Shown here in pieces: positions 35,456 to 46,043 of a DNA stretch of 64,000 nucleotides. The notes beneath the pieces are model-generated. The model was not told where the DNA came from, did no database searches, and saw only the letters and a program-made list of their open reading frames with translations. The stretch is taken from NCBI RefSeq assembly GCF_900110855.1, contig NZ_FOFA01000002.1, positions 248,001-312,000 on the forward strand, given 5' to 3'. The translations under genes and the position numbers were made by a program. Each line of letters begins with the position of its first letter. Position 1 is the first letter of the stretch. Origin of the DNA: Microlunatus flavus. Lineage in GTDB: Bacteria; Actinomycetota; Actinomycetes; Propionibacteriales; Propionibacteriaceae.

Positions 35456-36784
35456 ATGCGTTTCGTTCGTTCAGGGCGCCGTGCCGCGGTCGCCGCTGTC
35501 TCCCTCAGCGCGCTGCTGCTGGCAGCGGCGTGCGGCAGCAGCAGCTCCGGCACCGGCTCCGGCACGGGGTCCTCCGCCCCGGCCGTGGACTTCACCAAGC
35601 AGGGCGACATCGAGCTGTGGAACGGCAAGGACGTCTCCGGCAACCTGCCGAAGCTCATCGCGCAGTTCAACTCGCAGCACCCCAACGGCCAGGTCAAGTT
35701 CCACGAGCTGCCCGACAGCGCCGACCAGCAGCGCCAGCAGATGATCCAGAACACCCAGATCAAGAACCCGGCCATGGGCGTGATCAGCATGGACGTGGTC
35801 TGGACCTCGGAGTTCGCGGCCAAGGGCTACGTCGTGCCGCTGCCGACCGACCAGTTCCCGACGACCGGCTTCCTGCAGTCCGCCGTCGCCGGCGCCACCT
35901 ACTTCAACAAGCTGTACGCCTACCCGTCGACCTCCGACGGCGGCCTGCTGTACTACCGCAAGGACCTCCTCGACAAGTACAACCTGAAGCCGCCGACGAC
36001 GTTCGACGAGATGAAGGCCGCCTGCGACACGATCCGCAAGGGCGAGAACGACTCCAAGCTCGGGTGCTTCGCCGGCCAGTACAACAAGTACGAGGGCCTC
36101 ACGGTGAACTTCGACGAGGCCGTGCACAGCGCCGGTGGTGTCACCGTCGGTGACGACGGCAAGCCGAACGTGGCGACCCCGGAGGCCGCGAAGGGCCTGC
36201 AGACCCTCGCCGACTGGTTCAAGAACGGCGACATCCCCAAGGCCGCGATCACGTGGCAGGAGGAGAACGGCCGCCAGGCGTTCGAGGCCGGGCAGCTGAT
36301 CTTCCACCGCAACTGGGGCTACGTCTACAACCTGGCCCAGACCGACAAGGCCAGCGTCGTCAAGGGCAAGTTCGACGTCGCCCCGCTGCCGGGCATCACC
36401 GGTCCGGGCGTCTCGAGCCTCGGCGGCCACAACTTCGCCATCGCCGCGAACGCCGAGAACAAGGGCACCGCGGTCGACTTCCTGAAGTTCATGAGCTCGG
36501 AGGAGGTCCAGAAGTCGAACACGCTGGCCACCTCGGCCAGCCCGACGCTGGAGAAGCTCTACACCGACTCCGACCTGGTCAAGAAGTTCCCCTTCATGCC
36601 GACCCAGCTCAAGTCGATCCAGGGGGCCGTGCCGCGGCCCAAGGCGGTCGAGTACGGCGACGTGACCCTGGCCATCCAGGACGCCGCGTACGGCGCGCTG
36701 CAGGCGGGTGCGAACGGCCAGACGGCCGACGCGACCGCTGCTCTCCAGGGCCTGCAGACCAAGCTGCAGACGCTGATCAAGTAA
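35456..36784 (+). CDS. Carbohydrate ABC transporter substrate-binding lipoprotein (LpqY/trehalose-binding-like)
   Basis: A 442-residue binding protein with a lipoprotein signal (lipobox LAAAC, lipidated Cys near residue 23) and a Ser/Gly-rich linker. Segments such as MDVVWTSEFAAKGYVVPL, DGGLLYYRKDLLDK and FEAGQLIFHRNWGYVYNL resemble the LpqY/ThuE group of trehalose/maltose-type binding proteins; the exact ligand is inferred. It is followed by a hairpin and two permease genes. It should capture a disaccharide outside the membrane. Confidence 0.9.
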   Translation: MRFVRSGRRAAVAAVSLSALLLAAACGSSSSGTGSGTGSSAPAVDFTKQGDIELWNGKDVSGNLPKLIAQFNSQHPNGQVKFHELPDSADQQRQQMIQNTQIKNPAMGVISMDVVWTSEFAAKGYVVPLPTDQFPTTGFLQSAVAGATYFNKLYAYPSTSDGGLLYYRKDLLDKYNLKPPTTFDEMKAACDTIRKGENDSKLGCFAGQYNKYEGLTVNFDEAVHSAGGVTVGDDGKPNVATPEAAKGLQTLADWFKNGDIPKAAITWQEENGRQAFEAGQLIFHRNWGYVYNLAQTDKASVVKGKFDVAPLPGITGPGVSSLGGHNFAIAANAENKGTAVDFLKFMSSEEVQKSNTLATSASPTLEKLYTDSDLVKKFPFMPTQLKSIQGAVPRPKAVEYGDVTLAIQDAAYGALQAGANGQTADATAALQGLQTKLQTLIK

Positions 36785-36795
36785 CGATCGGTTCC

Positions 36796-36838
36796 GTCCA
36801 CGGGTCCCGGCGCGCTGTGCGTGCCGGGGCCCGTGGAC
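36796..36838 (+). terminator. Long hairpin between binding-protein and permease genes
   Basis: Arms 36796-36811 (GTCCACGGGTCCCGGC) and 36823-36838 pair over 16 bp with a single G-U wobble around an 11-base loop. Located 11 bases after the lipoprotein stop, it probably causes partial termination or 3' stabilisation so that more binding protein than permease is made. Confidence 0.65.
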
Positions 36839-36860
36839 GACTCTCCTAGGAGGTGACCGC

Positions 36861-37928
36861 ATGGCGACAGCCACTGCGGAACCACGCAGCGCCGCCGCCG
36901 TCGCGCCCGACGGCCACAAGCACAAGAAGAACGCGCTCAGCGACGGGCAGGGCCGCCTGGCCTGGATCCTGCTGGCGCCCACCCTCCTGGTCATCCTCGT
37001 GGTGGCCGGCATCCCGGTGATCATGTCGATCCGGGAGTCGTTCTTCCAGACCAACGACGGCGTCGACCCCGTCACCGGCATGGTCGCCGGTGGCGAGAAG
37101 TTCGTCGGGCTGGGCAACTTCACGGCCATCTTCGCCGGGCAAAACCCGGTCACCGGCTCGTGGGGCACGATCGACCGCTTCTGGAACGCGTTCTGGAACA
37201 CGACCGCGATCACCGTCGTCTGCATCATCCTCGAGACGATCCTCGGCGTGGCGATGGCGCTGATCATGGCCAAGGCCTTCAAGGGCCGCGGCATCGTCCG
37301 CGCCGGCATCCTCGTCCCGTGGGCCATCCCGACCATCGTGTCGGCCCTCATGTGGAAGCTGATCTTCGACGCGGACGGCATCATGAACCGGGTCCTCGGC
37401 AACCAGGTCCTCTGGCTCGCCGACACGGGCGCGTCCTTCTGGGCGATCGTCATCGCCGACACCTGGAAGACCGCCCCCTTCATCGGGCTGCTGACCCTCG
37501 CGGGGCTGCAGACCATCCCCGCCGAGGTCTACGAGGCGGCCAAGGTGGACGGGGCCACGACCTGGCAGCAGTTCGTGCGCATCACCCTGCCGCTGGTCCG
37601 GCCGACGCTCGTCGTCGCCGTGCTGTTCCGCACGCTCGACACGCTGCGCATGTTCGACCTGCCCTACGGCATGATCGGCGCCGGCAAGTACCGGGTGGAG
37701 ACGCTCTCGATCTTCTCCTACCTGGAGGCGACCCAGACGCGCTACGGGCCGGCCGCGGCGTACGCGATCGTGCTCTTCATCTACGTGCTGCTGGTGGCCT
37801 TCGTCTTCGTCAAGCTCCTCGGCGCCGACGTGATCGGTGACACGGGGATGCCCAAGAAGAAGAAGGGCAAGAAGAAGGCCGGCGACGCGGCCGCACCCGG
37901 CCTCGAGATGGTGGGAGGGGCGCACTGA
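36861..37928 (+). CDS. Carbohydrate ABC transporter permease, MalF/SugA type
   Basis: A 355-residue permease with a basic cytoplasmic N-terminus (DGHKHKKNAL), about six membrane helices and the EAA motif VYEAAKVDGATTWQQFVRITL. A Lys-rich C-terminal tail (MPKKKKGKKKAGD) follows the last helix. AGGAGG precedes the ATG. Its stop overlaps the next ATG (TGATG). It forms a heterodimer with the following permease. Confidence 0.92.
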   Translation: MATATAEPRSAAAVAPDGHKHKKNALSDGQGRLAWILLAPTLLVILVVAGIPVIMSIRESFFQTNDGVDPVTGMVAGGEKFVGLGNFTAIFAGQNPVTGSWGTIDRFWNAFWNTTAITVVCIILETILGVAMALIMAKAFKGRGIVRAGILVPWAIPTIVSALMWKLIFDADGIMNRVLGNQVLWLADTGASFWAIVIADTWKTAPFIGLLTLAGLQTIPAEVYEAAKVDGATTWQQFVRITLPLVRPTLVVAVLFRTLDTLRMFDLPYGMIGAGKYRVETLSIFSYLEATQTRYGPAAAYAIVLFIYVLLVAFVFVKLLGADVIGDTGMPKKKKGKKKAGDAAAPGLEMVGGAH

Positions 37929-38860
37929 TGGCCACCACGACAACTCCGCCGACGGAGCACTCGCACCTGAGCTCCGCCGAGGTCGCCGAGCTGGCCCGCG
38001 AGAAGCGGAGCCCGAAGGCGCTCGTCGGGATGATCGCGTCCTACGTCGGCATGGCGCTGATCGTCCTCTACTGCATCATCCCGTTCTACTGGATGATCGT
38101 GTCCTCGCTGCGTGACCCGAGCCAGGGCCGCAGCACGCAGTTCATCCCGGACCCGGTGTCCATCGCGAACTTCAAGGGCGTCTTCTCCGGGCAGAACAAC
38201 TTCGGCCGGTCCCTGATCAACTCGTTGATCGTCTCCGGGGCCACGACCATCCTCACCCTGCTCTTCGGCATCGTGGCGGCGTACGCGCTGGCGAGGCTGA
38301 CCTTCAAGGGCAAGGGCCTCGTGCTCTGGGTGATCATGGCCTGCTCGATGTTCCCGGTGATCATCCTGATCCCGCCGCTGCTGAAGATGTTCTCCTCCAC
38401 GGAGCCGTTCCAGTGGTTCCCGCGGTGGGTGGACACCTACCAGGCCGTCATCGTCCCGTACCTCAGCTTCGGGCTCCCGCTGGCGGTGTGGAACCTGACG
38501 GCCTTCTTCAAGCAGCTCCCCGTGGAGCTGGAGCAGGCCGCGATGGTCGACGGCTGCACCCCGGGGGTCGCCTTCCGCAAGGTGATCCTGCCGCTCGCGG
38601 CGCCGGGCGTGTTCACCACGGCGATCATCGTGTTCATCGGTGCGTGGAACGAGTACCTGATCGCGCTGACCTTCCTGCAGGCCGCGGACCGGCAGACCGC
38701 GACCGTGGCGATCAGCAAGTTCACCGGCACGACCGGCTTCGACACCCCGTACGGCACGATCATGGCCGCCGGTGTGATCGTGACGGTTCCGCTCCTCGTC
38801 GCGGTGCTGCTCTTCCAGCGCCGCATCGTCGCCGGTCTCACCGCCGGTGGCGTGAAGTAG
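37928..38860 (+). CDS. Carbohydrate ABC transporter permease, MalG/SugB type
   Basis: This 310-residue permease has six predicted helices and the ATPase-contact motif LEQAAMVDGCTPGVAFRKVIL, with Gln replacing the usual first Ala of EAA. ATG overlaps the preceding stop. It completes the third importer of this window, which again lacks its own ATPase. A strong terminator-like palindrome follows. Confidence 0.92.
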   Translation: MATTTTPPTEHSHLSSAEVAELAREKRSPKALVGMIASYVGMALIVLYCIIPFYWMIVSSLRDPSQGRSTQFIPDPVSIANFKGVFSGQNNFGRSLINSLIVSGATTILTLLFGIVAAYALARLTFKGKGLVLWVIMACSMFPVIILIPPLLKMFSSTEPFQWFPRWVDTYQAVIVPYLSFGLPLAVWNLTAFFKQLPVELEQAAMVDGCTPGVAFRKVILPLAAPGVFTTAIIVFIGAWNEYLIALTFLQAADRQTATVAISKFTGTTGFDTPYGTIMAAGVIVTVPLLVAVLLFQRRIVAGLTAGGVK

Positions 38861-38949: not shown

Positions 38950-40302
38950 TCAGAAGCGGAACGGGTTGGAGCGCATCGCGGCGAAGAGATACCACGACGT
39001 GGCGCCGACGTGCAGGTCCTGGGAGTAGTCGAACCCGAAACCGGTGTCGAGCGGTGACGAGGCCGCGACGACCCCGCCCGTGACGCGCTTCTGGTGGAAC
39101 GTCTGCGTGGCCCCCAGACGGTCCTGGCCGGAGCGGATCTCCTCGAGCAGGATGCGCGCACGTGCCCGGTCGTCCGGGGCGTTGCGGCGGTGCAACGCCA
39201 GCGCGAGCTGGGCTGTGCCCTCGAACCACACGGCCCCGTCGTCGGGCTTCGGGTTCCACTCCTGGCCGCCGACCCGGACGGTGACGTCGGTGCTCAGGGT
39301 GCCGCTGCTGAAGCCGACCCCGGAGACGGCGTAGGAGCCGCGCAGGGAGGAGTTCGTGCGCAGCGGGGTGTCGGTCGTCGCCAGGGTGGTGCGGGCCCAG
39401 TCGAGGCAGCCGGCGTGGCGCTGCTCGCCGATCGAGAGCCAGGACCAGGTCTGCACGTCGAGCGGGCGCTGGTGGGCCGCCTTGTTGATCGTCGCGCCGT
39501 CGTCGGAGCCGGTCCAGAAGAAGCCGTCCTCGGCGTTCCAGACGGCGCGCACGAAGGCGCGGGCGTGCTCGGCGTGCTCCAGCCAGGACGGCTCGCCGGT
39601 CACGCGGGCGACCAGGCGGAACAGGGCGTACAGGTCGATGTTGTGCTCGGTGGACTTGTGGCCCTCCAGGCCGGCCGTCTCGCCGAAGGTGAAGCCGCCG
39701 AGCCCGGACGTCGAGCGGGCGCGGTCCACGATCCAGCGGGCGATGCGCAGCAGGCCGCGGCGGTAGGGGGCGTGGCCGGTCGCGTGGGCCAGCTGGGCGA
39801 GCGCGAGACCGGTCCAGGCCATGTCGCCGACCGCCGTGCCCGTGAACCCGTACTCGTTCCCGGGCACCGGCGCGGTGCCGGGCTTCGCGAACGTCGCGAC
39901 GTGGTACGCCTGGCGCAGCCGGCCGTCGCCGGTCGGGTCCCGGTCCTGCACGAGCAGCAGCGCGTCGCCGACGGCGCGGGCGCGGGCCCGGTCGCCGGCG
40001 GCGAGCAGCGCCATGCAGGTGAGCGCGTTGTCGTAGACGAAGCCGATGTCGCCGAGCCGTGAGTCGTCGTAGCTCTGGGCCAGCCGGGGGCCCTTCGTGG
40101 CGTAGGCGTCGGTGACCTGCTGCAGGAAGTGCAGCGCCGCCCGCGCGGAGCGGTCGGCGTGGGCGGAGCCCTGGTCGGCGGCTGCGGCGGGCAGCGTGCG
40201 GGCGGCGATCAGCGGGACCGAGGCTCCCAGGGCTGCGCCGGCGCCCAGCAGGGCGCGCCGGGTGGGGTGCGGGCTCGTACGTCCGGTGGTCGGTGAGGTC
40301 AT
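38950..40302 (-). CDS. Tat-exported protein, probable alpha/alpha-barrel glycan-active enzyme
   Basis: A 450-residue protein with a twin-arginine signal (HPTRRALLGAGAALGASVPLI, cleavage near AAAADQG around residue 43). The mature region consists of repeating helical hairpins with conserved aromatic/acid motifs (GFVYDNALTCMALLA, STEHNIDLYALF, AVWFEGTAQLALAL, GFGFDYSQDLHVGATSWY), reminiscent of six-hairpin glycosidases. I cannot assign a CAZy family. It is divergent from the glucan synthase operon at 40688 and probably works outside the cell on the same polysaccharide; that link is inferred from position. Confidence 0.8.
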   Translation of the reverse strand: MTSPTTGRTSPHPTRRALLGAGAALGASVPLIAARTLPAAAADQGSAHADRSARAALHFLQQVTDAYATKGPRLAQSYDDSRLGDIGFVYDNALTCMALLAAGDRARARAVGDALLLVQDRDPTGDGRLRQAYHVATFAKPGTAPVPGNEYGFTGTAVGDMAWTGLALAQLAHATGHAPYRRGLLRIARWIVDRARSTSGLGGFTFGETAGLEGHKSTEHNIDLYALFRLVARVTGEPSWLEHAEHARAFVRAVWNAEDGFFWTGSDDGATINKAAHQRPLDVQTWSWLSIGEQRHAGCLDWARTTLATTDTPLRTNSSLRGSYAVSGVGFSSGTLSTDVTVRVGGQEWNPKPDDGAVWFEGTAQLALALHRRNAPDDRARARILLEEIRSGQDRLGATQTFHQKRVTGGVVAASSPLDTGFGFDYSQDLHVGATSWYLFAAMRSNPFRF

Positions 40303-40687
40303 CAGGGGTCCTTCGGGCGGGGGAGCCGCCTCGGGGGAGCGGCGGCCCGATCACGCTAACGTCCGAATTAATTCCTCGGGCGCGGGGTCGGCAACCTCAC
40401 ACCCGCCCACTTCGACAACGTTGTCGGCGTCTGCCTACCATGGAGGCCTGCGCCAAACAGTCGGCGCGCGGCCGCTGCCCCAGGCGGCCTGGAGGAGACG
40501 GACCACGGTCCGTGAACCTCCCCGGCACGCGACGGCCCCCGGCGACGCGTCTCGGCGGCACTGCTGCCGTTGTCCACCGTCGCGACCGAACCTCGCCACG
40601 CCGTGCACCCGTCGACCAGACCCGGTCCGTGCTGCACGCGTGCCCGAGCGCCTGCGCGGCACGCCAGAAGACCGAGGGAGCTGCCGC
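40303..40687. promoter_or_regulatory. Divergent regulatory region of the glucan synthase locus
   Basis: This 385-base gap separates the Tat-exported protein gene from the GT2 gene. It contains a strikingly AT-rich palindrome GAATTAATTC (40365-40374) that could belong to a promoter, and a perfect 14-bp palindrome CGACAACGTTGTCG (40413-40426) of LacI-family operator form with central CG. No regulator gene lies next to it. The remaining approximately 260 bases before the GT2 start show no credible gene; a long leader is possible. Confidence 0.5.
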
Positions 40688-42463
40688 ATGGCACGACCTG
40701 TCCACGACTACGCCCGCGTCGACGAGTACGAGCCGGTCTCCCGGCGCGCCGAGACCGCGAACCCGTATCCGCCCGTCCTGATCGTCATCACGCTCGTGGC
40801 GACGCTGGGCATCATCCGCTACGCGATGTTCCTGCTCTCGCCGGGCAACCGCGGCAGCCTGCTGCCCTACCTGCTCGTGGTGGTGGCCGAGCTGATCCTG
40901 ATCGTCCACGCGCTGCTCTCCGGCTGGACGATCCTCACGGGGACGAAGGGACCGCGCGACTTCCCCTACCACGAAGCGAAGACGGGCCTCTTCAACCGCT
41001 CGCTCGTCAAGGCCGCCGGGCTGCAGGACTCGCCCGAGCAGTGGCCGATGTCGATCGACGGCCGCGAGGTCAGCGTCGACGTCTTCATCCCGGTCTACGG
41101 CGAGGACGTCGGCGTGATCCGGCGCACGGCCCTGGCCGCGCTGGCCATCCGGGGACGTCACCGGACCTTCGTCCTCGACGACGGCCGCTCCGACGAGGTG
41201 CGGGCCATGGCCGCCGAGATCGGGTGCGGCTACATCCGCCGGCTCAGCGGCGGCGGGGCCAAGGCGGGCAACATCAACCACGCCCTCTCCATCGTGCAGT
41301 CGGACTACTTCTGCGTCTTCGACGCCGACTTCGTGCCCCGCCCGGAGTTCCTGGTCGAGACCGTGCCGTTCTTCGTCGACAAGACCGTCGCCTTCGTCCA
41401 GACGCCCCAGGCGTACGGGAACCTGCACAACCTGATCTCCCGCGGCGCCGGCTACATGCAGACCGTGTTCTACAAGTTCGTCCAGACCGGGCGGAACCAC
41501 TTCAACGCGGCCTTCTGCGTCGGCACGAACGTCATCTACCGCCGCGCAGCGGTCGACGACGTCGGCGGCATCTACACCGATTCCAAGTCCGAGGACGTGT
41601 GGACCTCCCTCATGCTCCACGAGCGCGGCTGGCGCACCATCTACATCCCGCAGACGCTCGCCGTCGGCGACGCGCCCGAGACGATCGAGGCGTACACCAA
41701 GCAGCAGCTGCGGTGGGCGACCGGCGGATTCGAGATCATGTTCACGCACAACCCGCTGAGCCCGCGGCACAAGCTGTCGATGGACCAGCGCCTCATGTAC
41801 CTGGTCACGGCCACGCACTACCTCACCGGGCTGGCGCCCGGGCTCCTGCTGCTGGTGCCGCCGCTGGAGATCTACTTCGACCTCCGGCCCGTGAACCTGG
41901 ACATCTCGATCACGACGTGGGTCGTCTACTACGCCGGCTTCTACCTGATGCAGATCCTGCTGGCTTTCTACACCCTCGGCTCGTTCCGCTGGGAGGTGCT
42001 GATGCTGGCCGCGGTGTCGTTCCCGATCTACCTCGCCGCCCTGGTCAACGCCTTCGTCGGCAAGGAGCAGAAGTGGCACGTGACCGGTGGCAAGGGAGGT
42101 CGCCCGGAGTCGCCCTTCAGCTTCATCATCCCGCAGGTCTGCGTCTTCGCCTTCCTGGCGCTGACCTCCGTCGTGGCCGTGTGGCGCGACGTCGACAACA
42201 GCCAGCTCACGCTCGCCACGGGCTGGAACGTCACCAACACGGCGATCCTCGGCGTCTTCATGCTCGTGGCGCTTCGGGAGTCGTGGCGCAACCGCCACCC
42301 GGCCGCCGACCGCGCTGCCGACCCGGCTCCCGGCTGGACCGTCCCGCAGGACACCCCGCTCCCCGTGCTTCCCGCACTCCCGGACGGCACGACCGTCCCC
42401 GCCGACAGCCGCGACCTCCTCGTGGGCGCCGGCTCCACCCTCTCGAGGAAGGTCGACGCATGA
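40688..42463 (+). CDS. Processive family 2 glycosyltransferase (cellulose/curdlan synthase-like)
   Basis: A 591-residue membrane glycosyltransferase. Two N-terminal helices (about 28-50 and 59-84) precede a cytoplasmic GT-A domain with all processive-synthase signatures: FVLDDG (D164, D165), GGGAKAGNINHAL, FDADF (D212, D214), SKSEDVW (E302, D303, the TED-like base) and QQLRW (339-343). Five or six C-terminal helices would form the extrusion channel. No PilZ domain is visible, so it differs from c-di-GMP-regulated BcsA. ATG at 40688 follows GAGGGAG. The next gene overlaps by ATGA. The product is probably a beta-glucan; the GH81 gene in the operon points to beta-1,3 linkage. Confidence 0.9.
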   Translation: MARPVHDYARVDEYEPVSRRAETANPYPPVLIVITLVATLGIIRYAMFLLSPGNRGSLLPYLLVVVAELILIVHALLSGWTILTGTKGPRDFPYHEAKTGLFNRSLVKAAGLQDSPEQWPMSIDGREVSVDVFIPVYGEDVGVIRRTALAALAIRGRHRTFVLDDGRSDEVRAMAAEIGCGYIRRLSGGGAKAGNINHALSIVQSDYFCVFDADFVPRPEFLVETVPFFVDKTVAFVQTPQAYGNLHNLISRGAGYMQTVFYKFVQTGRNHFNAAFCVGTNVIYRRAAVDDVGGIYTDSKSEDVWTSLMLHERGWRTIYIPQTLAVGDAPETIEAYTKQQLRWATGGFEIMFTHNPLSPRHKLSMDQRLMYLVTATHYLTGLAPGLLLLVPPLEIYFDLRPVNLDISITTWVVYYAGFYLMQILLAFYTLGSFRWEVLMLAAVSFPIYLAALVNAFVGKEQKWHVTGGKGGRPESPFSFIIPQVCVFAFLALTSVVAVWRDVDNSQLTLATGWNVTNTAILGVFMLVALRESWRNRHPAADRAADPAPGWTVPQDTPLPVLPALPDGTTVPADSRDLLVGAGSTLSRKVDA

Positions 42464-43197
42464 CCTGGACCAACCGTCTCCGCCTGTTCGGCGGCCTGCT
42501 CGGCGTGCTCGTGCTCGTCGCCGTGCTGACGCTCGTCTTCAACCAGCGCCAGACCCAGGCCCAGAGCCTGACCGCCACCATCGGCACCGACGCGTACGAC
42601 GTCGGCGCCGGCTACGGCGGCACCGTCATCGAGCAGGACGTGCGCGAGAACGACATGGTGAAGGTCGGCGACCCGCTGTTCACCATGCAGAGCCCCGCCA
42701 TGCAGCAGGACGTCGCCAACAAGGTCAAGGTCAAGAGCACCGAGGCCTACCGGGTGAACACCAAGAAGGGCACGATCACCTACCTGGCCACCGTCGCCGG
42801 CCAGGTCGACGAGGTCCGGGCCCGCCTCGGCACCACGCTGACCGGTGGGCAGTCGTTCGCGCGGATCGTCGTGACCGGGTCGCAGTTCGTCACCGCCCAG
42901 TACGTGCTCACGCCACGCGACTACGAGCGCGTGCAGGCCGGCGCCCCGGTGTCGGTCCTGCTGCCCAACAACCAGAAGATCGCCGGTACGGTCAGCACCA
43001 TCAAGGTCGCGACCGACCAGGGCAACGCGGCCGCCGAGCTCCGGGTCGACAGCCCCGACCTCACCGACCCCGCCCTGAGCACGCTCACGAAGACCGGCAC
43101 CCCGGTCGTCGCCACGGTCCGGCTGCGCGACGACGGCCCGCTCGCCGGCGTCAGCGACTCGGCCTTCGCCTTCCTGCGCACGATCGGCGTCACGTGA
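42460..43197 (+). CDS. HlyD/membrane-fusion-type adaptor protein
   Basis: A 245-residue protein with one N-terminal membrane helix (LFGGLLGVLVLVAVLTLVF) and an external part with a biotinyl-lipoyl-like domain (GYGGTVIEQDVRENDMVKVGDPLFTMQS) followed by a beta-barrel segment (GAPVSVLLPNNQKIAGTVSTI). This is the layout of membrane fusion proteins and of Alg44-like synthase partners, though without PilZ. It overlaps the GT2 gene by ATGA and the GH81 gene by GTGA. It probably assists export of the polymer through the cell envelope. Such an adaptor is unusual beside a synthase in a Gram-positive. Confidence 0.82.
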   Translation: MTWTNRLRLFGGLLGVLVLVAVLTLVFNQRQTQAQSLTATIGTDAYDVGAGYGGTVIEQDVRENDMVKVGDPLFTMQSPAMQQDVANKVKVKSTEAYRVNTKKGTITYLATVAGQVDEVRARLGTTLTGGQSFARIVVTGSQFVTAQYVLTPRDYERVQAGAPVSVLLPNNQKIAGTVSTIKVATDQGNAAAELRVDSPDLTDPALSTLTKTGTPVVATVRLRDDGPLAGVSDSAFAFLRTIGVT

Positions 43198-45224
43198 GGC
43201 GCGGAGCGCTCGCGCTCGTCGCGCTGACCCTGGTCCTCGGTCTGGCCGCCTGCACGCCCGGCGCGCCGAGGACCGGGGGCTCCGGGTCCGGCTCGACCCC
43301 CGCCGCGACCAGCGGCGAGGTCCTCCCCGCCGCCCAGGTCGACCCGCTGGTGGCGGGCGTGGTGCACCGCACCGTCAAGCCGCTGCCGACGAGCCGGCTG
43401 GCGGACGGCCTCGTGCCGCCCACCAACCGGTGGTTCTCGGGCCTGGTCTTCGGCGACCAGCCGCAGCCGGTCTTCCCGCTGCCGCTCTCCTTCGGCCTCA
43501 CCGGCTCCGGCTTCTCCTTCGGCCAGCCCCGGGTCACGACCACCGCCAAGACCATCGCGGGCGGCTTCGCCCCGGACGTCGCGGTGGACGCCGGGGCCTC
43601 CTCGGCCGTCGTCTCGGCCTACGACGCCCTGAGCGTCACCGTCGAGAGCCGCGACGCGAGCGGAGTCGCGCTCGGTCGTACGGTCGTCGCGGAGGGTTCG
43701 CCGTTCGTGGCCTACCACGTCGCGAAGGCCGGCTCGGTCCGCACGAACCTGCCCTGGGCCGAGCAGGACGGTTTCTGGACCGCCGCGGTCGGTGGCGTGA
43801 CGTACGCGATGGTCGTCGCCGACGGGACCGTCCAGGGCGGCACCGTCGAGCTGGAGGCGTCCGGGGTCGCGACCTGGTTCCCGGTCCCGGCCGACGGCTC
43901 CGCCGGCGCCCTCGCGGCGCTCGCGGCGCACCCGCTGACCGGCGGTTCCGTGGCGTCGACGACCGCGGGCGACCGCGTGACCACCACGCTCGCCTACCGC
44001 TCCGACGGCGACACCGCGTACGCCCGGCTGCCGCACCAGAGCGCCGACCCGGTGGGGGAGCCGCGGTGCGACCTCGGGAGCTATCCGAGCGTGTACGGGA
44101 CCCTGACGCTCTGCTCGGGCAGCGCGCTCTCCTGGAGCGCGCCCGCCGTGCAGCCGACGAGCGCGCTCGACACGACGCGCCTCAGTGGCGAGGACAAAGC
44201 GACGCTCGCGGCCCAGGTCCGCGCTGACGTGGCGGCGACCCCGGCCTTCCCCTCCGACACCTACTTCGGCGGCAAGGCGCTCTACCGGGCGGCGATGCTC
44301 TACCAGCTCGCCACCCAGGTCGGTGCGGACGACGCCGCGGCCAGCATAAAGGCGCGCCTCGTCACGAGCCTCGACCAGTGGACCGACCCGCAGGGCTGCG
44401 CCCACCGGACGGCGGTCTGCTTCGTCTACGACGAGCAGGCCAAGGGACTGGTCGGGATGACCCCGTCCTTCGGCTCCGACGAGTTCAACGACCACCACTT
44501 CCACTACGGCTACTTCCTCTTCGCCGCGGGCGTCCTGGCGGAGTCCGACCCGGCCCTCGCCACGCGCTGGGCCCCGGTGATGAACCTGCTGGCGGCCGAC
44601 CTGGCCTCCTCGAGCGCCAACGGCGCGTTCCCCGACCTTCGCGTCTTCGACGTGTACGCCGGGCACTCCTGGGCGTCGGGCACCGCGCCCTTCGCCGACG
44701 GCAACAACCAGGAGTCGAGCTCGGAGGCCGTCACGGCCTGGACGGGGCTCGCGACCTGGGCGAAGGCCACCGGGGACGACGCGCTGCACGGCGAGGCCGT
44801 CTGGCTGCTGTCCCTCGAGGCGCAGTCGGCGAAGGCCTACTGGACCGACGTCGACCGGAGCCAGCCGGTCTACGCCGGCTTCGACCACCAGGTCGTCTCC
44901 CTGAACTGGGGCGGCAAGCGCGACTACGGGACGTGGTTCTCGGCCGAGCCGGCCGCGATCCTCGGCATCCAGCTGATCCCGATGAGCCCGGCGGCGACCT
45001 ACCTCGGCGGCGACCCGGCGCGGATCGAGGCCAACGTGAAGGAGGCCACCGGCGGGTCGTACGACCAGAAGTTCGGTGACTACCTGCTCATGTACTCCGC
45101 GCTGGCGGGGAACGCGCAGCGTGAGTCCGCGCTGGCCAAGGCCAAGACCTTGGACGCGCAGTGGATCGACGACGGCAACAGCCGCACGTACCTGCTCGCC
45201 TGGCTGATGACGGCCAAGGCCTGA
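43194..45224 (+). CDS. GH81 family endo-beta-1,3-glucanase lipoprotein
   Basis: A 676-residue exported enzyme with a lipoprotein signal (LVLGLAACTPG, Cys near residue 20) and a Gly/Ser linker. The N-terminal beta-sandwich contains PPTNRWFSGLVFGDQPQPVFPLPLS-type sequence typical of GH81; the catalytic barrel has DHHFHYGYF (D433) and NNQESSSEA (E507, E511), the family's acid/base region. It should hydrolyse beta-1,3-glucan at the outer face of the membrane. GTG overlaps the adaptor stop, so synthase, adaptor and glucanase are co-translated, as BcsZ accompanies cellulose synthase. That suggests a role in trimming or releasing the polymer. Confidence 0.92.
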   Translation: MRRGALALVALTLVLGLAACTPGAPRTGGSGSGSTPAATSGEVLPAAQVDPLVAGVVHRTVKPLPTSRLADGLVPPTNRWFSGLVFGDQPQPVFPLPLSFGLTGSGFSFGQPRVTTTAKTIAGGFAPDVAVDAGASSAVVSAYDALSVTVESRDASGVALGRTVVAEGSPFVAYHVAKAGSVRTNLPWAEQDGFWTAAVGGVTYAMVVADGTVQGGTVELEASGVATWFPVPADGSAGALAALAAHPLTGGSVASTTAGDRVTTTLAYRSDGDTAYARLPHQSADPVGEPRCDLGSYPSVYGTLTLCSGSALSWSAPAVQPTSALDTTRLSGEDKATLAAQVRADVAATPAFPSDTYFGGKALYRAAMLYQLATQVGADDAAASIKARLVTSLDQWTDPQGCAHRTAVCFVYDEQAKGLVGMTPSFGSDEFNDHHFHYGYFLFAAGVLAESDPALATRWAPVMNLLAADLASSSANGAFPDLRVFDVYAGHSWASGTAPFADGNNQESSSEAVTAWTGLATWAKATGDDALHGEAVWLLSLEAQSAKAYWTDVDRSQPVYAGFDHQVVSLNWGGKRDYGTWFSAEPAAILGIQLIPMSPAATYLGGDPARIEANVKEATGGSYDQKFGDYLLMYSALAGNAQRESALAKAKTLDAQWIDDGNSRTYLLAWLMTAKA

Positions 45225-45265: not shown

Positions 45266-45271
45266 TAGGGT
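45266..45271 (+). promoter_or_regulatory. Leaderless -10 element of the PAP2 gene
   Basis: TAGGGT ends seven bases before GTG at 45279. Confidence 0.6.
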
Positions 45272-45278
45272 GCGGGCT

Positions 45279-46043
45279 GTGGCTGGACGCGACCGTTCTC
45301 GTCGCCAGGGCGAGGAAGACGGCCGCCCGGCGCCGTCCTCCGGCCCCGGCGGGCGGGCGAGCCGCCGGTCGCGCCTGGTCCGGTCGGCCGCGTCGATGTC
45401 GGCGTTCGCCCTCCCGGTGGCGGTCCTGGCCTTCGCGGTGCGCGAGCACGCCCACGCCCTGGTGGACCTCGACGCCCGCCTGAGCGACGCCGCCACCCGG
45501 TGGGCGCGCCGGGCGGGCATCGTCCCCGCGCTCGCCGCGGTCCAGGCGGCCGCGCAGCCGTGGGTGGTCTACACCGCCAGCGTTCCCGTCCTGGCCTGGT
45601 CGGCCGTCCGGCTCGGCCTGCGGAGCCGGACGACCTGGGCGTTCGTCACGATGATGGGCAGCTGGGGGCTCGGCGCCTTGTCGAAGCTCGTCGTACGGCG
45701 GGTGCGACCGGTCCTCGACGACCCGCTGACCGTCACGACGGGCTACTCGTTCCCGTCGGGCCACGCGCTCAACTTCGCGGCGGCGAGCTCGACCGTCCTG
45801 GTCCTGCTCTGGCCGCGCCTGCGCCCGCGAGCACGTCGGCTGCTCACGGTCGGGCTGGTGGCCCTGGCCCTCGTCGTCGGCGCGGACCGGGTGCTCATCG
45901 GTGCCCACTTCGGGTCCGACGTGATCGCGGGCTACCTGCTCGGTGCCGGCCTCAGCATCGCCTCGTGGATCGCCTTCATCGGGCCGACGCCGCCGTCGTC
46001 ATCCGCCCGCTCCTCCTGGTCGGGTTCGGAGCCCCTGCCCTGA
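45279..46043 (+). CDS. PAP2 superfamily phosphatase
   Basis: A 254-residue membrane phosphatase with several helices and all three motifs of the family: KLVVRRVRP, the PSGH motif in YSFPSGHALNF, and the distal DRVLIGAHFGSDVIAGY with catalytic His and Asp. It likely dephosphorylates a lipid phosphate or diphosphate such as undecaprenyl pyrophosphate outside the membrane. It follows the GH81 gene by 54 bases but has its own TAGGGT, so it is probably independent. A basic, disordered N-terminus precedes the first helix. Confidence 0.88.
   Translation: MAGRDRSRRQGEEDGRPAPSSGPGGRASRRSRLVRSAASMSAFALPVAVLAFAVREHAHALVDLDARLSDAATRWARRAGIVPALAAVQAAAQPWVVYTASVPVLAWSAVRLGLRSRTTWAFVTMMGSWGLGALSKLVVRRVRPVLDDPLTVTTGYSFPSGHALNFAAASSTVLVLLWPRLRPRARRLLTVGLVALALVVGADRVLIGAHFGSDVIAGYLLGAGLSIASWIAFIGPTPPSSSARSSWSGSEPLP

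Follow-up and report, generated by a model that had tools for sequence, protein, structure and literature searches.

A conserved operon of GT2 synthase, HlyD-type adaptor and GH81 glucanase as a candidate curdlan-like β-1,3-glucan system of actinobacteria

A stretch of 64,000 nucleotides from Microlunatus flavus (contig NZ_FOFA01000002.1, positions 248,001 to 312,000; hereafter the window) carries three co-oriented genes, encoding a processive GT2 synthase, a membrane-fusion-type adaptor and a GH81 endo-β-1,3-glucanase, which form a conserved stand-alone unit (Table 1). We consider it probable that, in a monoderm actinobacterium, this trio forms a synthase-dependent system whose extracellular product, which we infer, is a curdlan-like β-1,3-glucan. 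A sequence-only reading of the window had proposed that three overlapping genes act jointly on β-1,3-glucan. Both overlaps were confirmed, and the proposal is strengthened by the conservation of the operon, by its presence in Cellulomonas flavigena and by a homologue of the curdlan protein CrdC in the window. The host genome (4.79 Mb in 26 contigs) holds one match to the trio GT2 and one to the trio GH81 at the thresholds used.

Table 1 Features of the operon and its divergent neighbour (window coordinates)
Feature	Position	Strand	Remarks
CrdC-family protein, divergent from the trio	38950-40302	-	450 amino acids; twin-arginine leader by eye; accessory partner
Divergent intergenic region	40303-40687		385 bp; holds the 14-bp perfect palindrome CGACAACGTTGTCG
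Processive GT2 synthase	40688-42463	+	591 amino acids; Pfam and motifs
ATGA overlap, GT2 stop/adaptor start	42460-42463	+	
HlyD/membrane-fusion-type adaptor	42460-43197	+	245 amino acids; Pfam, profile, AlphaFold2 model
GTGA overlap, adaptor stop/GH81 start	43194-43197	+	
GH81 endo-β-1,3-glucanase	43194-45224	+	676 amino acids; Pfam; lipobox-like start

The operon and its conservation

The synthase matches GT2 families in Pfam down to E 9e-25. Its motifs LDDG, DAD, SED and QQLRW, fully or almost fully conserved across 28 aligned sequences, correspond to the DD, DxD, ED and QxxRW pattern recognised earlier, and hydrophobic, transmembrane-like segments (judged by eye) flank the catalytic domain on both sides. 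The Pfam scan gave no match to a PilZ domain, unlike the Bcs and Ccs synthases and in agreement with the sequence-only reading.

The adaptor matches HlyD_3 (PF13437; E 1.7e-9, 38.8 bits against a cut-off of 22.2). At the profile level it matches an alignment of CrdA/BgsB-type proteins (probability 93, E 2.8e-7), both lying in the broad HlyD group, as well as barrel-sandwich domains of several families, including membrane fusion proteins. An AlphaFold2 model (predicted local distance difference test score, pLDDT, 89) comprises a single transmembrane-like N-terminal helix of 28 residues and β-rich domains, without a long helical hairpin. The HlyD_3 match and the modelled anchor helix are consistent with the earlier description of a membrane-fusion-type adaptor, and a form of this kind, if the model is correct, would suit a monoderm cell lacking an outer-membrane channel.

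The hydrolase carries the GH81 C-terminal domain (PF17652, E 2e-59), and the N-terminal domain PF03639 scored 15.2 bits, under its cut-off of 25.6. When the host genome was searched with this N-terminal model there was no hit, although the controls of that search gave none either. In a search of PDB sequences it aligned to solved GH81 enzymes, which are named endo-β-1,3-glucanases, and known members of the family act on β-1,3-glucan. Together with PF17652, a lipobox-like LAAC at its start (by eye) agrees with the lipid-anchored GH81 proposed previously. Of 115 GH81s, 108 have an intact DHHFHYGY motif; the exceptions are five Frigoribacterium copies with HYFHYGY, one sequence that differs at the end of the motif (L090) and one fragment (L167). 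A simple lipobox pattern was matched by 59 of 75 complete GH81s. Among the 16 others, some have a lipobox just past the chosen start, showing that a few near the start were missed because start codons were set by rule, and several Cellulomonas proteins begin with a hydrophobic segment instead. Either kind of start suggests that the GH81 is often membrane-tied. A secretome study of C. fimi detected, among the proteins of the supernatant, a GH81 that lacks a typical leader (PMC4780727; this and the other papers cited here are represented by parts of their text).

Among 391 genomes of the order, the GT2 was matched at 1e-40 in 69, of which 55 were classed as close (above 660 bits). All 55 close-GT2 genomes also contain a GH81 match. 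In three others, which lack the trio GT2, GH81 is matched less strongly (189-303 bits). The order GT2-adaptor-GH81 is kept in all 40 loci fetched from the order (L081-L120). A wider genome scan returned 280 encoding stretches; in the best 80 of these, kept as named loci (L121-L200), the adaptor is present in 79 and GH81 in 78, the two without a visible GH81 (L185 and L198) being cut by contig ends. As the arrangement recurs in 40 of 40 order loci and 78 of 80 named loci, it is not due to chance. The sets of 40 loci, 80 loci and 115 GH81s overlap in some genomes.

In these comparisons a simple rule on base composition defined the open reading frames, and a rule likewise set the start codons. 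The 4-bp overlap between GT2 and adaptor is exact in 29 of 40 order loci and 71 of 79 named loci, and that between adaptor and GH81 in 18 of the 40 order loci and 23 of 78 named loci. Clustering of flanking open reading frames across the 40 order loci recovered the GT2/adaptor cluster in 40 and that of GH81 in 39, whereas no other family was seen in more than five, and so identified no further conserved neighbour. Tandem GT2-adaptor-GT2-adaptor arrays precede one GH81 in a Demequina locus (L179) and a Cellulomonas-group locus (L242), as if synthase and adaptor form a pair. An apparent GT2-adaptor fusion in L111 was set aside: the sequence connecting the two parts seems not to be in frame, so that a frameshift is likelier.

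Hosts among the best 80 of 280 stretches are Propionibacteriaceae, Microbacteriaceae, Cellulomonadaceae and relatives, Demequina, a Nocardioides metagenome-assembled genome (MAG) and one Acidobacteria-labelled contig, and the closest named GT2 relative there belongs to a Friedmanniella MAG (78% identity). The Acidobacteria-labelled MAG (L184) carries the trio with 60% GT2 identity, from either a mislabelled bin or a transfer. The operon is patchy: when the class was sampled evenly, eight of 394 genomes had the GT2 at 1e-100. Among the matches listed in a search of mostly open-access literature, we found no published description of a GT2-adaptor-GH81 operon.

Lineage and motif residues of the synthase

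Two GT2 trees were computed, from 40 and then 30 rows; the CrdS type was represented by three rows and BcsA by a single one, and Streptomyces CslA was absent. The second omitted PgaC, L248, L250 and L252 (long or divergent) and the trio rows L093, L095, L099, L102, L108 and L113. CrdS and BgsA labels were assigned from gene neighbours, that of the Agrobacterium plasmid locus L202 being backed by primers. The trio GT2s form one group in both trees (supports 97/99 and 100/100), and CrdS groups in both with rhizobial HlyD-linked GT2s and BcsA, apart from the trio. In the second tree L244-L247 come out as the clade nearest to the trio (100/98), a join that was not resolved in the first tree, which included PgaC. 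GH6 homologues lie beside L244-L246, which come from relatives of the host, with an ATGA overlap in L244; the stretch read around L247 contains no GH6. By analogy, the GT2-GH6 arrangement recalls CslA-CslZ.

The motif residues give a different picture. FCVGT, in a region which we take to be the acceptor-end motif of GT2 enzymes, occurs in 77 of the 80 named loci and SED[VI]WTS in 79, and all three CrdS rows have the same FCVGT/SED residues. The corresponding residues are FFCGS/TED in BcsA, FCCGS/TED in the BgsA rows and FCCGT/TED in the GH6-linked clade. Two actinobacterial GT2s (L250 and L252) carry CVGT/SED without the trio; these residues are therefore not confined to GH81-linked enzymes. 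We hypothesise that FCVGT/SED may set the linkage. Placement of the GT2 relative to BcsA and CrdS, suggested as a check by the sequence-only reading, thus gave a divided outcome: the residues are common with CrdS, but the enzyme lies outside the CrdS clade, nearest to a GH6-paired one. Given this position, the term ‘curdlan-type synthase’ is backed by the nature of the hydrolase, by the link to CrdC and by the motif residues, and not by phylogeny.

The CrdC-like protein, Cellulomonas and neighbouring genes

The protein encoded divergently from the trio shares 32% identity over 391 aligned columns (E 4e-34) with the third gene product of L202, an Agrobacterium plasmid locus called crdASC from gene order, gene lengths (including that of crdA) and partial matches of the published crd primers. 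CrdC is required for curdlan in Agrobacterium and its function is unknown (PMC3293034, PMC10819609). Alone, the window protein had no match in Pfam, NCBIfam or PDB sequences. The family alignment contains invariant EHN-D and EG residues, and family profiles match (α/α)-barrel enzymes such as GH76 and GH127 weakly, a hint only. An AlphaFold2 model from the single sequence (pLDDT 39) was not used. The leader fits the earlier proposal of export by the twin-arginine route. CrdC-family members occur in 43 plasmid records, of which 29 are all of the top CrdS-type GT2 rows (H61-H89; at least 48% identity, compared by eye); the other 14 belong to Azospirillum (12), Streptomyces and Kitasatospora. No GT2 is annotated near the CrdC-like gene in two annotated Azospirillum regions (L264, L265).

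Within the host genus, a CrdC-like match is present in seven of seven trio genomes against one of 12 others; in Cellulomonas (n = 81) in 31 of 51 trio genomes against none of 30 without the trio; and in the order in 14 of 55 trio genomes against 14 of 336 others, the association being assessed by Fisher tests that ignore shared ancestry. Among 49 further trio genomes, covering all but one of 50 named loci chosen outside Propionibacteriaceae (part of those available there), nine have a match, six of them strong (Cellulomonas, Cellulosimicrobium and Oerskovia). A class sample gave matches in nine of 197 genomes, including three large genomes of one family. The ten neighbours scanned around unlinked CrdC-like genes contained nothing informative. 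Homologues of a sugar importer, together with a histidinol dehydrogenase gene, were seen near the CrdC-like genes of L277 and L281.

The trio is also present in C. flavigena 134T, C. fimi and C. gilvus, with a CrdC-like gene elsewhere in all three genomes. Curdlan is abundant in C. flavigena and made in small amount by C. fimi and others, and two GT2s per Cellulomonas genome, with 35-39% identity to CrdS, have been named as candidates (PMC3544764). In the available text, that study leaves open which GT2 makes the curdlan of C. flavigena and how the glucan is re-used. The trio GT2 is probably Cfla_3154, Celgi_1506 and Celf_3456 of that study, as map positions fit the tag numbers; the adaptor/GH81 operon is not described in the part of PMC3544764 available. 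The second C. flavigena GT2 (L238) has the cellulose-type FFCGS/TED residues, and no GH81 lies in the stretch read around it.

Other features around the trio were examined as candidate parts of the system. The palindrome CGACAACGTTGTCG (40413-40426) has a 12-bp core whose copy here is the only exact one in the genome. It was rejected as a conserved operator, because among 295 loci the core occurs only in L001 and L061, both of the host genome. A PAP2-type phosphatase gene (45270-46043; Pfam) lies directly 3' of GH81, and was likewise discarded, having no match beside the trio in L081-L120 or L121-L200. A sugar ABC importer (a binding protein and two permeases; 35456-38860) stands just before the CrdC-like gene and is not kept beside the trio in relatives.

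Readings, proposed mechanism and related systems

Several observations weigh against a curdlan-like assignment. A single clade of trio and CrdS is rejected by the approximately unbiased (AU) test (p 1e-45, second tree, three CrdS rows), which rules out the trio GT2 as a member of the CrdS clade, and a clade of trio, CrdS and BgsA is also rejected (p 4e-4, second tree); the tested groups were chosen after the first tree had been viewed. The adaptor is linked to CrdA at the profile level only, because tblastn found no adaptor relative in the plasmids. C. gelida has the trio (L194) and no CrdC-like match, and is reported to make no curdlan exopolysaccharide (PMC3035266, citing Kenyon 2005), which speaks against a simple rule that the trio equals curdlan; this one species is also suggestive of a role for CrdC. 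No CrdC-like match was found in 40 of the 49 further trio genomes (Microbacteriaceae, Cellulomonadaceae, Demequina and the Nocardioides MAG), and 14 of 28 CrdC-positive genomes of the order lack the trio, four of them with strong matches (G050, G101, G176 and G207). An obligate partnership is thereby ruled out.

The fourth gene, which the sequence-only reading took to complete the locus, therefore does not hold as a general part of it. Among the loci examined, only the window and L081 have a CrdC-like gene placed divergently to the trio; the stretches read of the other 39 order loci, the 80 named loci and L235-L243 (Cellulomonas group) contain none. A search for the four-gene neighbourhood in other actinobacteria consequently bore out the trio but not the divergent gene. 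Overall, the GT2/adaptor/GH81 core of that reading stands, with two corrections: the fourth gene is no general component, and the GT2 does not belong to the CrdS clade.

The best reading is that the trio GT2 represents a separate actinobacterial lineage of β-1,3-glucan synthases, served by a trimming hydrolase of its own. We go further only tentatively, at somewhat less than even confidence: this would be a second, independent β-1,3-glucan synthase lineage, an offshoot near the GH6-linked, CslA-like clade that switched linkage (with FCVGT in place of FCCGT/FFCGS and SED in place of TED, as in CrdS) and exchanged GH6 for GH81. In Cellulomonas it would then be the enzyme that makes curdlan, and CrdC would turn out to be a portable helper, serving two curdlan machines that differ in descent.

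Alternatively, the operon might make a mixed-linkage or otherwise modified β-glucan, of which the GH81 trims only the β-1,3 stretches. The nearest clade is GH6-paired, and BgsA, which makes mixed-linkage glucan in rhizobia, is likewise accompanied by a protein with a HlyD domain, BgsB (PMC9495663). The rhizobial GT2s taken as BgsA, however, have FCCGS/TED rather than FCVGT/SED, and the flanks of the trio hold no further gene family in more than five of 40 loci, so that we regard this alternative as unlikely. Still less credible is a cellulose or other β-1,4-glycan product, with the GH81 carried along for feeding or defence. Cellulose synthases are indeed the best profile and PDB-sequence matches of the GT2, but the CelA match is far under its cut-off (247 against 699 bits), a GH81 partner occurs in 55 of 55 genomes, and the motif residues are unlike those of BcsA, the GH6-linked clade and the second C. 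flavigena GT2. Least probable of all is that the GH81, which could serve the use of foreign glucan, eats fungal or plant β-1,3-glucan and is merely co-regulated with an unrelated surface-glycan synthase: some trio genomes do carry other GH81s (about 33-40% identity) at separate sites, and a possible effect on fungi is raised in a genome paper on Frigoribacterium (PMC12823222), but of the 58 genomes of the order with a GH81 match 55 also contain the trio GT2, the other three having only the weaker matches given above, and the gene overlaps are frequent.

Processive GT2s extrude the growing chain through their own membrane channel. In the system favoured here, a β-1,3-glucan machine, the GT2 would by extension polymerise UDP-glucose and push the chain out through such a channel. 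The adaptor, translationally coupled to the GT2 and anchored by its one N-terminal helix, may sit at the exit and guide or gate the chain. The GH81, lipid- or membrane-anchored, would cut the same polymer at the cell surface, for release, trimming or later mobilisation; this role is drawn by analogy with CslZ and CcsZ, and the specificity from the GH81 family. The exported CrdC-family protein, whose gene lies either next to the operon or elsewhere, could assist in the host genus and many Cellulomonas.

The trio thus offers candidates for the C. flavigena curdlan synthase (preferred over the second GT2 with FFCGS/TED) and for a coupled β-1,3-glucanase, and CrdC gains actinobacterial relatives that retain its invariant residues. 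The two-residue signature, together with the GH6/GH81 difference between neighbouring clades, allows a direct test of linkage determinants in GT2 enzymes. In addition, GH81s of such genomes that have been read as secreted and possibly antifungal (PMC12823222) may be biosynthetic.

Among known systems, the crdASC operon of Agrobacterium resembles the trio in the FCVGT/SED residues of its GT2, in its HlyD-type partner and through the CrdC homologue of the window. It differs in that the trio GT2 is outside the CrdS clade, the CrdC-like gene is usually unlinked in trio genomes, and the crdASC-type locus L202 has no GH81; the trio adaptor, at 245 amino acids against 484 for CrdA, is without the middle insert. 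The rhizobial bgsBA mixed-linkage operon also combines a HlyD-domain protein with a GT2, but no hydrolase is described for it in the available text (PMC9495663), and the rows taken as BgsA group with CrdS and have FCCGS/TED. A multi-transferase imp cluster of Actinoplanes (PMC12691653) was considered as a parallel and rejected as different.

Closer in plan is the CslA-GlxA-CslZ system of Streptomyces, in which a monoderm actinobacterium likewise pairs a GT2 with a lipoprotein glucanase (PMC9040799); the clade nearest to the trio GT2 has GH6 neighbours, as does CslA. CslZ, however, is a GH6 enzyme acting on β-1,4 glycans (PMC9040799), whereas the trio has GH81 and an adaptor, with no conserved further neighbour. 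The clostridial ccsZABHI operon similarly joins a Gram-positive synthase to a membrane-anchored endo-glucanase whose specificity was used to infer the polymer, but has a GH5 hydrolase, a PilZ-bearing CcsA, a CcsB resembling a carbohydrate-binding module and acetylation genes (PMC7710045). The membrane tie of the trio GH81 is as in the lipoprotein CslZ (PMC9040799) and the transmembrane-anchored CcsZ (PMC7710045). The trio therefore appears, from its sequence features, to share with systems of the Bcs, Csl and Ccs kind a membrane GT2 with the D,D,D,Q(Q/R)xRW pattern, predicted processivity and a co-encoded exported glycosidase.

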